Source of the DNA: Candidatus Saccharimonadota bacterium
GTDB taxonomy: Bacteria; Patescibacteriota; Saccharimonadia; Saccharimonadales; Saccharimonadaceae
Assembly: GCA_030528625.1 (NCBI GenBank)
Contig: JAUMYN010000001.1
Location: 124,001 to 188,000, forward strand
Length of the DNA stretch: 64,000 nucleotides
Direction: 5' to 3'
Each line of letters starts with the position of its first letter. The stretch's first letter is position 1. Positions 10,669 to 20,292 of the stretch are shown here, in pieces. The position numbers and the translations under genes were made by a program. The notes below the pieces were generated by a model. It was not told the origin of the DNA. It saw only the letters and a list, made by a program, of their open reading frames with translations, and searched no databases.

Positions 10669-10698
10669 ACCTCTCGCCTGTTACGGGCGGGAGGTTTT
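10669..10698 (+). terminator. Terminator between rplY and the convergent ABC gene
   Basis: Ten-base stem ACCTCTCGCC / GGCGGGAGGT with one T:G wobble, followed by TTTT. It may serve both converging transcripts. Confidence 0.75.
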
Positions 10699-12505
10699 AT
10701 GATGGCTCGTCGGTGGTCAAAAATCCGCCCGACTGATGCTGCCACAGCTTGGCGTAGTGACCGCCGCGGGCCAGCAGCTCCTCATGGGTACCGTCTTCGA
10801 CGATGCGCCCCTCATCGAGCACCACGATACGATCCATCTTCGCAATGGTACTCAGCCTGTGCGCAATCACAATCGCCGTGCGGTCCTTCATCAAGGTCTC
10901 CAACGACTGCTGAATAAGTTTTTCCGACTCCGAGTCGAGCGCGCTCGTCGCCTCATCCAGCACTAGAATTGGCGCATCTTTGAGAATGGCCCGCGCAATA
11001 GCGATGCGCTGCCGCTGCCCGCCACTGAGTTTGACCCCACGCTCACCGACGACCGTGTCCAGTCCCTGCGGCAGTTTGCTGATAAACTCCAAAGCATGTG
11101 CCTGCTGGGCAGCACGTCGAATCTCCGCCTCGGTTGCATCCAGATTGCCGTACATAATATTGTCGCGCAATGAGCGGTGAAACAGTAGTGGCTCTTGCGG
11201 TACGTAAGCAATCGCTTCACGCAAACTCCGCTGCGACACGCGCCGCACATCTTGCCCGTCAATCTCCAGCGCGCCGCTCGTCACATCATCAAACCGCAGT
11301 AGTAGACGCGTTAGCGTCGTCTTCCCGGAGCCCGACACGCCCACCACGCCGACCTTCTGGCCCGGCTGGATGCTCAGGTTAAACTGTTTTAGCACCATAT
11401 CTTGCCCATCAGGATAACGATAATCGACTTCCTTCAGGTTAATCGCTCCTCTGGAAACGTGCAGTCGCCGGGCGCGCTTGGTGTCGGTGATGGCATTTTC
11501 AGAAAGGAGAATGTCCGTCATCGGCGCCGCCTCTAGAAGGATCTTGTCATAGCCATTCACCAGATCGCCAAGGCTAAAAATTTGCGTGGCGACGCGCTGT
11601 AGATACGCCACTACGAAAATCGCTGCCCCAAGGTCAATCGCTCCATGTAGCAACAGCTGCGCCATCACCGCGATAGCCGCAATCTGCACCCCCGTCATCA
11701 TCAGCAGCCGACCTGATCCTTCGGCCGCCATCAGTCTGAAGTCGCGGTGATGAATATCGCGGTACCGGGCGCTCAGTCTGGCAATCGACGACTGCTCATG
11801 TGCCTCGCGAGCAAACGTTTTGACGATCAAATTATTACTAATGACATCAGCTGTCGCACCATTCAGTTCGGCGATGGTTTCTTTGCGCGCTTTGCGCAGC
11901 GGCGTGCGCAACTTGATAGAGAGGCGCACCTGCGCAAGTAACAGTACTAGAATACCCAGAACGATACCGCCCATTAGCGGGCTATGCAGAAAAATCAGTA
12001 CAATACCGATGCCGAAGGTCAGTAAGAAACGCAAAGTCTGAATGACAAAGAGATTGTGCAGGCTCGTGTAGGCATTGACGAAGTCGAGAAATTTGCCCGT
12101 CAGAGCACCAATTTTCTGCTCAGCAAAAAACGCCTGGTCTTTCATGAGGAGCTGCGCGAGGGTATTGTCTACCAGCGCCTTTCGTACGTGTGCTTCATGC
12201 TAGGTGATAGCCTGAAAACCAATGAAATTGCTGATGACGCCACTTAAGCCAACTATTACTGCCAACCAGAGTAGTTGCGATAACTGTCCGTGATCACCCG
12301 TCGCAAATATCCCGATAGCCAGGGATAGTACATATGGTATGAGGGAATCAAGTAATAGCGCCGCCAACGGTATGCAGATAACAGCGAGCCAGAAACTAAC
12401 GCGGTGCCGTTGCGCCTGTTGCCAATATAGTCGAACCGTCTCCCTGGCGTTGATAGCTTTAGTCTTCGATAAACCCGCCCGACTGATGTTTCCAGAGCGT
12501 AGCAT
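10697..12505 (-). pseudogene. ABC exporter (permease-ATPase), interrupted by in-frame UAG
   Basis: Type I exporter half-transporter of about 602 codons. An N-terminal membrane region (12505-12203) ends in a TAG at 12202-12200. The same frame continues without any shift for 18 codons (HEAHVRKALVDNTLAQLL) into the rest of the permease and a full ATPase: Walker A GVSGSGKTT, Q-loop YVPQEPLLFH, signature KLSGGQRQRIAIA, Walker B ILVLDEATSALD, H-loop IAHRLST. One substitution (for instance CAG to TAG) would account for the break. The ATG at 12145 could give an N-truncated product. The N-terminal start is tentative and overlaps the upstream exporter gene by 47 bases. Not a frameshift. Confidence 0.85.
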
Positions 12506-14237
12506 AGGCCCCTTTCTTTTTGAGTAATGCTGCGTGCGTCCCATCTTCGACAATTGTACCATGTCCCATGACGACGATACGATCCATTTTGGCAATGGTG
12601 CTCAATCGATGCGCAATGACAATCGCCGTACGGTCCTTCATGAGCGTTTCGAGCGACTGCTGAATCAGCTTTTCTGATTCAGAATCAAGGGCTGAAGTCG
12701 CCTCGTCCAGCACCAGAATTGGCGCGTCCTTTAAAATGGCCCGCGCTATGGCGATGCGCTGCCGCTGCCCACCGCTGAGTTTCACGCCGCGTTCGCCAAC
12801 CTCAGTTGCAAATCCATCTTTCAGCTCCATGATAAAGTCGTATGCACCGGCTTTTTTGGCTGCGGTCTCCACTTCAGCGTCCGTCGCCTCAGGCCGTGCA
12901 TAGGCAATATTCTCCCGTACCGAACGGTGAAACAGCAGCGGCTCCTGCGGTACATAGGCGATCTGCGAACGCACACTAGCCTGTGTTACCTCGGCGATAT
13001 CTTGCCCATCGATACGAATCGCTCCGCTGTCAACGTCAGCAAAGCGCAGCAGTAGCTTGGTCAGGGTCGTCTTGCCAGAACCTGATGATCCCACCAGCCC
13101 CACTTTTTCGCCTGGTTGAATGGCCAGTGAAAAATCACGAAACAGCGTTGCGCCTTCGCCTTCATCGTGCGTAAAAGTAATATTATCTACGGTGATTGCG
13201 CCTGAAGTTATGCGCAGCCTAGTATCGCTGCGATCAACCAGTGTCGTATCGCGCGCCAGGATATCGGTCATGGCCCGCGCGTCGCCGATAATATGGTTAT
13301 AGGTGCGCATAATGCCATTGGTATTCCATAGCTCACGCGCCACGGTTGCGGTATAGGTAATGATGAGGTACACCGCCGACACCGACACGATATTATGCTG
13401 CGAGGCGTAGACGGCAAAGGCTACGGCACCAACCTTGAGGGCGGTGTTGATGGTGGAGTAGACGGTGCTGACTTTTAGAAAGCCGCGCATGATGCCCAGC
13501 GAGGCCTGTCGCCAGTCGGTGACGCGGTCGCTGAAGGCTGCCAGCTCGGTCTGCTCGCTGCCTGCGGCCTTGATGGTCATAATGTTTGCCATAGCGTCGG
13601 CTAGGCTGCCGCTCAGCTTATTGCTGGTGTCGGCTTCTTTCTTATTCAGGGCGGCCATAGGCCGGGAGCCGACATATACCACCACTATAAAGATGATGGC
13701 AATGATTGTTAGAAAGACAGCGTACTGCCAAAACAGGGTTGCTAGTATGGCGATAGAACCAACCAGCGAGAGCGCCAGAGGCAATATTGACCACATAATC
13801 ATGTCCCAAAAGCGTTCGGTTGCGCCAGCTAGCTTGCTAGTTTGGCTGACCAGCGATCCACCAAACGTGTTGGCGTGAAAGAACATGGTTTCGTTAGTTA
13901 ATTTACGAAAAATCCGCTGATACATATCGCGCTGCATGGCGGTCTCAAATGTCCAGACCAGATAAATCACTACGCGCCAGCCAATAACTTCCGACCAGAG
14001 CTGACTAAGGCCATAGGCAATCACCAGTGTCCATAGCGCGTTACTGTCAGATAGTCCGCCGTGCTGAATGCTGTCTAGTAGCCGCGCAATCAGCAGCGGG
14101 CCAACAAACATGCCGACACAGAGAGTAAGAGCGGCCACCACGAGAGCAAGGTTGCGTCGGGCTTTATATGGCAGCGATGCGCGGTAGAGTAATGTGATAA
14201 TGTCTCGATTAGTCTTTTTTTCAGAAGTGGTTTTCAA
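12459..14237 (-). CDS. ABC exporter, permease-ATPase fusion
   Basis: 592-residue type I ABC exporter half-transporter: six-span permease (about 1-330), then ATPase with Walker A GSSGSGKTT, Q-loop YVPQEPLLFH, signature KLSGGQRQRIAIA, Walker B ILVLDEATSALD and H-loop IAHRLST. It lies directly upstream of, and overlaps, the related interrupted exporter, so the pair probably forms a heterodimer. From SGGQRQR to DRIVV the two proteins are almost identical although their DNA differs at many third positions. Substrate unknown; lipid, peptide or drug export are all possible for the family. Confidence 0.92.
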   Translation of the reverse strand: MKTTSEKKTNRDIITLLYRASLPYKARRNLALVVAALTLCVGMFVGPLLIARLLDSIQHGGLSDSNALWTLVIAYGLSQLWSEVIGWRVVIYLVWTFETAMQRDMYQRIFRKLTNETMFFHANTFGGSLVSQTSKLAGATERFWDMIMWSILPLALSLVGSIAILATLFWQYAVFLTIIAIIFIVVVYVGSRPMAALNKKEADTSNKLSGSLADAMANIMTIKAAGSEQTELAAFSDRVTDWRQASLGIMRGFLKVSTVYSTINTALKVGAVAFAVYASQHNIVSVSAVYLIITYTATVARELWNTNGIMRTYNHIIGDARAMTDILARDTTLVDRSDTRLRITSGAITVDNITFTHDEGEGATLFRDFSLAIQPGEKVGLVGSSGSGKTTLTKLLLRFADVDSGAIRIDGQDIAEVTQASVRSQIAYVPQEPLLFHRSVRENIAYARPEATDAEVETAAKKAGAYDFIMELKDGFATEVGERGVKLSGGQRQRIAIARAILKDAPILVLDEATSALDSESEKLIQQSLETLMKDRTAIVIAHRLSTIAKMDRIVVMGHGTIVEDGTHAALLKKKGAYATLWKHQSGGFIED

Positions 14238-16160: not shown

Positions 16161-16541
16161 GTGCCACCACTCACGCCCGAAGAAGAACGCGTGATTATTC
16201 ATAAGGGCACGGAGCGGGCGTTTATAGGTGTACTTCTGGATGAGAAGCGGACGGGCGTGTACCTTTGCCGGCAGTGCGGCGCGCCGCTGTATCGCTCGGA
16301 TGATAAATTTAGTTCGATGTGCGGCTGGCCAAGTTTTGATGATGAAATTGACGGAGCAGTGACGCGAACGATGGATGCTGACGGGCGGCGGGTGGAGATC
16401 ACGTGTGCGGCCTGTGGCGGACACCTCGGCCATGTGTTTGAGGGCGAGGGTTTGACGCCGAAAAATATCCGACATTGTGTTAATTCGGTGTCGCTCCATT
16501 TCGTGCCTGACGAGACCACGCAGGAGGTGAACGATGCGTAG
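16161..16541 (+). CDS. msrB: Peptide-methionine (R)-S-oxide reductase
   Basis: 126-residue MsrB, which repairs methionine-R-sulfoxide. It keeps the zinc Cys pairs (CRQCG and [12 protein letters not shown]), the substrate-binding CGWPSF segment, and the catalytic Cys in [13 protein letters not shown]. It starts with GTG immediately after the TspO-like stop. The end overlaps the beginning of an msrA remnant by eight bases, the usual arrangement of a coupled msrB-msrA operon. Confidence 0.95.
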
Positions 16542-16635
16542 TATCGTGCTGGGCGGCGGCTGTTTTTGGGGCGTGGAAGAACTGTGCAGTAACTGGCCTT
16601 TTCTGTACTATAATTACTCCCAAAAAGTAATCTAA
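16534..16635 (+). pseudogene. msrA: msrA remnant (5' end only)
   Basis: ATG 16534 reads [17 protein letters not shown], the hallmark MsrA N-terminus including the catalytic Cys in GCFWG. Similarity ends after about 17 codons; the frame then runs through AT-rich, non-homologous sequence to TAA at 16633. No other part of MsrA was found downstream. The breakpoint (about 16584) coincides with the beginning of the AT-rich leader of the XRE/membrane module, which points to a deletion or replacement. Confidence 0.8.
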
Positions 16636-17472: not shown

Positions 17473-17480
17473 GTTATAAT
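17472..17480 (+). promoter_or_regulatory. Extended -10 promoter of def
   Basis: TGTTATAAT with six bases to ATG 17487. Confidence 0.65.
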
Positions 17481-17486
17481 AGCGAC

Positions 17487-18038
17487 ATGGAACTCCTCTC
17501 GCTCACTCGATTTGGTAACCCGGTGTTGCGCGAAAAGGCGCGTGAATTAACGCTGGATGACATTCGCAGCCAGAAAATCCAGCAGCTTATCGCAAACATG
17601 CGGTATACGCTGCGAGAAAATAAATATGGCGTAGGGCTGGCAGCACCGCAGGTCGGCGAAAGTGTGCAGCTGAGCGTTATTGATATCAAGCCGACACCAA
17701 CACGGCCAGAGCTTCAGCTATTTAGCACCATTCTGATCAATCCGAAGATTGTTGCGTATCATGGCGAGTTGGAGCCAATGTGGGAGGGGTGTGTCAGTTG
17801 CGGTTCAAATGACGATATAGTATATGCGCAGGCGATGCGATATCCCGAAGTGACGGTGCAGTGGTTTGATGAGCACGCTTGCCAACAGGAGTAGAGGCTG
17901 AGTGGTTTTGTTGCGCATGTGGCGCAGCATGAGATTGACCACCCTGGTGGCACCTTGTTTGTTGATCGCATTGTGGACTCGACGACTTTTATGATGGCCG
18001 ACGAATATCGCAAGCGGGTCATAGAGCAAAAAACCTAG
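17487..18038 (+). pseudogene. def: Peptide deformylase interrupted by in-frame UAG
   Basis: The reading frame from ATG 17487 encodes deformylase motif 1 (YGVGLAAPQVG) and motif 2 (WEGCVSCGS, metal Cys). It stops at TAG 17892-17894. The same frame continues for 47 codons with RLSGFVAHVAQHEIDHPGG, which is motif 3 (HEIDH, two metal His and the catalytic Glu), and ends at TAG 18036. The truncated product would lack the metal site. A single base change would restore a normal 183-residue enzyme. No other def is seen in the window. Confidence 0.88.
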
Positions 18039-18752: not shown

Positions 18753-18758
18753 TATAAT
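18753..18758 (+). promoter_or_regulatory. -10 element of uvrC
   Basis: TATAAT with seven bases to GTG 18766. No Shine-Dalgarno site, which supports the GTG as a leaderless start. Confidence 0.65.
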
Positions 18759-18765
18759 AATAAGA

Positions 18766-20292
18766 GTGAACCCCAAGCTTCAAGCCAAACTCAAAACCCT
18801 CCCGCGCCGCCCCGGTGTGTATTTTCATAAGTCGGCTGATGGCGAGGTGATTTATGTGGGAAAGGCGGCGGTGCTGCGTCATCGGGTGCGGCAGTATTTT
18901 CAGGATAGCCGGGCACGGGATAATAAAACCATGGCCTTGGTGGCAGAGATTGCCGATACGGACTGGATCGAGACGGAGAGTGAGGTTGACGCGTTGTTTC
19001 TCGAAAGCGAAATGGTCAAGCGCTATATGCCGCGCTACAATGTGCTGCTGCGTGATGATAAATCGCAGAGCTATGTGCGGATTGACATGAAAAACGAGTG
19101 GCCGGTGGTGAGTTTTACGCGCAACCCGGCGGATGATGGTGCGGAGTATTACGGCCCGTTTTATAACGGCTATGCGCTCAAAAAGGCCCTGCGATATTTA
19201 CGCAAAATCTTCCCGTATCTGACGCGTGAACGACGACCAGGGCAAAGCAGGCTGGATGAAGATTTGGGCTTGTCGCCACGGGTGAGTGATGGGCCAGAGG
19301 CGTACAAGGCGAACTTGCGAAAACTCATCAGTTATATCAAGGGTAATCGCAAGACGATTGCGGCGGAGCTCGAGCGGGATATGAAAACCGCGGCAGGGCT
19401 GCACGACTTTGAAAAGGCGGCGAGCTTACGCAATAAACTGCGTGCTATGCAAGAACTCCAGCGGCGAGTTTGTTTCGGCGATAAGGAATTTTTGGACATT
19501 TCGAAAGATAAGGCACTAGCAGATATTGCGGCAATCCTGGGGCTGAAAAACATCCCCGCGCGCATCGAGGGTTATGACATCAGCCATCACGGTGGGCAAC
19601 ATGTGGTCGCCAGCATGGTGGTGTTTACTAATGGTGCCAGTGACCGGGCGGAGTATCGCAAATTCAAAGTCAGCGAAAAAAACGATGATACCGGCAATAT
19701 GTACCAGGTCATTTTGCGGCGGCTCGGCGAGCGTAATCTTAAAAGCTGGGGCAAGCCCGACCTCATGCTCATTGACGGCGGCAAGGGGCAGCTTATGGCG
19801 GCCATCAAAGCGCGTGATGAACGCGACCTAAAAGTTCCGATCGTTAGCATCGCCAAGCGGGAAGAGGAAATTATCATCCATCAGACTGGCTCATTGGTGA
19901 CGGTGCCGCCTCGGCTCAAAGATGCCCGCATCGCTCATGACGGAGATATCACTATCATCAATCTTCATCCCGGCCAAATTAACGCTGGGTCGCACTCCAA
20001 AAACCTGCGTGCCAGCACTCAGTCCTACCGCTATAGTGACATCACCAAGCTGCTTCAGCGTATCCGCGATGAATCGCACCGCTTTGCCGTGAGCTATCAC
20101 ACCACACTGAAGCGTCAGTCGGCTACGAAAAGTCAGCTGGAGGACATCCCCGGCATTGGCCCAAAGACTCGCGCCAAACTGCTGAAGCACTTTGGTAGCC
20201 TCAAGCGGCTACATCAGGCGACAGACGAGGAACTTTGCGCCGTCATCGGGCCGCGCTTGACACTCATACTCCGTCGGCAACTTGGCGAATAG
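18766..20292 (+). CDS. uvrC: Excinuclease ABC subunit C
   Basis: Dual-incision nuclease of excision repair. GIY-YIG domain at the N-terminus (GVYFHK...VIYVGKA), UVR/UvrB-binding segment near 200-235 (LHDFEKAASLRNKLRAM), RNase H-like endonuclease domain (GYDISHHGG, LMLIDGGKGQL), and a C-terminal helix-hairpin-helix (DIPGIGPKTRAKLLKHFGS). At 508 residues it is about 100 shorter than E. coli UvrC but all domains are present. GTG start. Confidence 0.97.
   Translation: MNPKLQAKLKTLPRRPGVYFHKSADGEVIYVGKAAVLRHRVRQYFQDSRARDNKTMALVAEIADTDWIETESEVDALFLESEMVKRYMPRYNVLLRDDKSQSYVRIDMKNEWPVVSFTRNPADDGAEYYGPFYNGYALKKALRYLRKIFPYLTRERRPGQSRLDEDLGLSPRVSDGPEAYKANLRKLISYIKGNRKTIAAELERDMKTAAGLHDFEKAASLRNKLRAMQELQRRVCFGDKEFLDISKDKALADIAAILGLKNIPARIEGYDISHHGGQHVVASMVVFTNGASDRAEYRKFKVSEKNDDTGNMYQVILRRLGERNLKSWGKPDLMLIDGGKGQLMAAIKARDERDLKVPIVSIAKREEEIIIHQTGSLVTVPPRLKDARIAHDGDITIINLHPGQINAGSHSKNLRASTQSYRYSDITKLLQRIRDESHRFAVSYHTTLKRQSATKSQLEDIPGIGPKTRAKLLKHFGSLKRLHQATDEELCAVIGPRLTLILRRQLGE

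Follow-up and report, generated by a model that had tools for sequence, protein, structure and literature searches.

A peptide deformylase gene of Candidatus Saccharimonadota bacterium, def2, is split by an in-frame TAG, and we consider it very probable that the stop arose recently by nonsense mutation in an accessory paralogue that the cell can spare, that is, ordinary gene decay. The genome has 788,276 bases in 6 contigs and is 99.99% complete. The gene lies in a stretch of 64,000 nucleotides (C3:124001-188000), called the window here, and coordinates without a contig name count from its first base.

The interrupted def2 gene

The TAG at 17892-17894 stands in the frame opened by the ATG at 17487 and divides a peptide deformylase frame (17487-18038, + strand), which stays open downstream of it until a second TAG at 18036-18038. 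The features are as follows.

17475-17480, + strand: TATAAT, a -10-like hexamer 6 nt ahead of the ATG, apparent leaderless-type start of def2
17487-18038, + strand: def2, the accessory peptide deformylase gene, broken; 184 codons with both the inner and the final TAG counted; PF01327 match with one TAG inside
17487-17894, + strand: upstream part of def2, 135 codons that include motifs 1 and 2, closed by the TAG; PF01327 match, 3.6e-27
17628-17651, + strand: motif 1, GVGLAAPQ, read from the translation
17784-17798, + strand: motif 2, EGCVS, read from the translation
17892-17894, + strand: in-frame TAG, read from the sequence and from the PF01327 match that contains it
17895-18038, + strand: part of def2 after the stop, 47 codons plus the final TAG; PF01327 match on its own, 1.2e-6
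17925-17942, + strand: motif 3, QHEIDH, beyond the stop and followed by PG, read from the translation and the alignment

The piece before the stop (135 residues) matches PF01327 with 95.3 bits (profile positions 4-121 of 156), and the downstream piece (47 residues) does so alone with 28.7 bits (positions 126-153); both are above the curated cut-off of 22.8 bits. The homology on the two sides of the TAG is not due to chance. A sequence-only reading of this DNA had described a deformylase split by UAG, with motifs 1 and 2 before the stop and HEIDH after it in the same frame, and the profile matches and the translation bear this out. The three motifs, which we take to be deformylase motifs 1, 2 and 3, follow one another in order, yet the TAG falls between motif 2 and QHEIDH, and no single open frame holds them all. 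Among the matches listed from the 120 genomes searched, its own included, def2 is the sole case of an inner stop in a PF01327 match.

We assume that the cysteine of EGCVS binds the metal and that QHEIDH supplies two metal-binding histidines and the catalytic glutamate. A product truncated at the TAG would not contain this last motif and should therefore be inactive. A restart after the inner TAG was considered by eye and rejected, as any product of the short remaining frame would be without motifs 1 and 2.

The stop aside, def2 looks little eroded and no worse than unbroken copies. Of the alignment columns with 90% conservation or more within the def2 clade, it departs at one (rank 24 of 39). 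Right after QHEIDH it has PG, each residue of which occurs at its column in 0 of the 88 other aligned rows, perhaps a faint sign of decay. So little erosion would be in keeping with a mutation of recent date, with a base error and with occasional readthrough alike.

An intact deformylase beside fmt and a patchy second clade

A PF01327 profile search of the genome returned two genes, the broken def2 and an uninterrupted copy, def1 (C3:536779-537252; 1.5e-44), which retains EGCLS and QHEIDH. Directly downstream of def1 lies fmt (C3:537362-537877; 3.1e-34), which has no stop either. The existence of another copy had been among the possibilities raised from the sequence, together with the proposal to search the genome for a second def and for fmt; both genes are there and intact, and since an intact def elsewhere had been named as the mark of ordinary decay, the result points that way.

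The motif 1 of the fmt-linked deformylase is altered in this genus (L001:1420-2064), reading ISAALAAVQ as against YGVGLAAPQ in def2. Four genomes of the same genus (G001-G004) have one PF01327 match each, which the tree places in the fmt-linked clade, so the fmt-linked type can evidently serve alone despite its altered motif 1. It would also do the housekeeping work in the present genome.

In the deformylase tree (89 rows), the fmt-linked genes form a clade of 40 rows with support 100/100, apart from a def2 clade of 39 rows (100/98) plus a divergent copy from G005. At all 40 sampled loci of the fmt-linked clade fmt lies within the fetched flank. Near the other def2 loci it was found at 1 of 38 (L044, in G067), and that locus also carries an fmt-clade deformylase. 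def2 is present in 43 of the 394 family genomes, this one included (E<=1e-20), and 38 of the 40 def2-bearing genomes searched again have a second PF01327 gene, the exceptions being G008 and G010, 76% complete. def2 is a separate, patchily held accessory clade. Of the papers listed by a literature search on peptide deformylase in Saccharibacteria, none dealt with such a second clade by its title or abstract. A search of genome contigs brought up just three relatives (43-55% identity), none of them another assembly of the species. When a possible recent origin of def2 from phage was examined, 138 phage records matched, all below 60% identity and the best-ranked at 38.5%, with no close source among them.

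The locus upstream of uvrC differs among relatives. G002, of the same genus, keeps the order msrB, msrA, HTH gene, DUF6773 gene and, further on, uvrC, and immediately upstream of uvrC, where the window has def2, all that is left of the gene is its last 20 or so residues, at 70% identity (44 of 55 nt). In G007, also of this genus, an uninterrupted def2 is likewise found upstream of uvrC. G005 is the genome closest to the present one by its fmt-linked def; no def2 match was found there between DUF6773 and uvrC, and its def2 copy, divergent at 36% identity, is some 11 kb away from uvrC. We infer that def2 is probably ancestral at the locus upstream of uvrC and is being lost. The gene is in two pieces in G148, where the frame is broken with a TGA inside, and the copy in G035 is missing the stretch with motif 1. 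On these comparisons def2 appears to have been lost or broken repeatedly, the break in G148 being independent of the one in the window. A def2-like copy in G005 (L034, G005:C3:142111-142614) is fast-evolving, with DGC replacing EGC in motif 2.

Other observations concern the neighbouring genes. At 16534-16632 the msrA that follows msrB is reduced to its first 20 codons or so plus unrelated sequence, and between 16584 and 16617 it lacks some 450 bases that G005 has. Both G005 and G002 have a full-length msrA at the msrB locus; none was found in the present genome by PF01625 at E<=0.001. The neighbouring ABC transporter genes at 10697-12145 and 12459-14237 (- strand) share a long stretch, identical by eye, in their ATPase domains, as might be seen after a recent duplication or gene conversion.

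TANAAT hexamers stand 6-11 nt before the start codons of open frames in 14 cases (17475-17489, 18753-18768, 36155, 60253 and others), more than the 2-11 per 6-nt bin at other spacings; this excess would be compatible with some of the genes having a leaderless start. It had been suggested that widespread leaderless initiation, if real, makes the question of formylation more interesting. The start of def2 does look leaderless, with TATAAT, 6 nt and ATG; the link to formylation is not needed, because the intact def-fmt pair can serve both formylation and deformylation.

Decoding of UAG and competing explanations

If the TAG is a nonsense mutation, translation would end at 17892-17894 and give a 135-residue product without QHEIDH, presumably unable to bind the catalytic metal. 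Housekeeping would fall to the fmt-linked deformylase, leaving def2 spare; because def2 is spare, the mutation would be tolerated, and the gene would be on its way out.

The main rival is a sequencing or assembly error, with def2 in truth an intact second deformylase. We regard this as unlikely, although a single base would be enough and the rest of def2 is as conserved as its unbroken relatives. The error would have to be a substitution and not the homopolymer indel that PMC9600527 gives as typical of nanopore assemblies, which would speak against an error if this genome were such an assembly. Relatives have lost or broken def2 as well, at this locus or within its clade, and of the other genes checked in this genome (def1, fmt, prfA and the second TIGR00019 match) none has an inner stop.

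The remaining explanations take the TAG as real and differ in how it is decoded or why it is tolerated. RF1 is present (prfA, 467.9 bits against the TIGR00019 cut-off of 423.25), no CUA anticodon was found among the 44 tRNAs of the genome (RF00005 search, then ARAGORN on all 44 loci), and TAG terminates 24 of the 59 window ORFs of at least 100 aa, a set picked by length, largely non-overlapping and including the broken def2. Genome-wide recoding of UAG, a suppressor tRNA and loss of RF1 are rejected on these three results. The probability that UAG encodes an amino acid throughout the genome is therefore practically nil, any general reassignment being already refuted and nothing beyond this one codon speaking for it. 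Readthrough of the stop had also been proposed; at a limited rate it would yield a little of the second deformylase in full length, and both halves of def2 can indeed still be recognised, with the frame open beyond the stop. RF1 and the tRNA set speak against it, however, the other def2 copies, as aligned, have no stop at the corresponding position, and the PG after QHEIDH is unique to the window copy; we hold it to be very unlikely. Even less probable is a recent leaky or conditional UAG that keeps the spare deformylase very low, or made by readthrough only, in this bacterium of a host-dependent lineage. As for a loss of formylation that made deformylase superfluous, no point in its favour was found, and it is contradicted by fmt and the second def, both uninterrupted and adjoining one another in this genome, which leaves it extremely improbable. 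A recent nonsense mutation in a spare gene is thus the reading that we prefer.

A CCA-bearing tRNA at L129:1501-1574 (G000:C3:376367-376440) is called tRNA-Phe with anticodon AAA by ARAGORN; judged by eye, its position 33 is C and not U. It adjoins a normal tRNA-Phe(GAA). In G005 it is 93% identical and has the anticodon AAA too; no full-length match was found in the other 7 genomes of the genus.

Comparison with known systems

Since this genome keeps its formylation and deformylation genes uninterrupted, the stop in def2 tells nothing unusual about initiation in the lineage. In Saccharibacteria there is a second deformylase clade of patchy occurrence, which seems to have suffered repeated loss or breakage. 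Like peptide deformylase in general (PF01327, def), def2 matches the family in both halves and has motifs 1-3 in order; unlike it, def2 has a stop between motif 2 and motif 3 that leaves no product with the whole active site. Bacillus subtilis (def/ykrB) has an accessory second deformylase beside the fmt-linked def. The present genome resembles it in having two deformylase genes, one of them adjoining fmt, and differs in that its non-fmt copy is broken. Bacterial nonsense pseudogenes of redundant paralogues share with def2 the stop in one copy, the intact copy elsewhere and the remnants in relatives, and no notable difference separates them from it. def2 is very probably a case of ordinary pseudogene formation.
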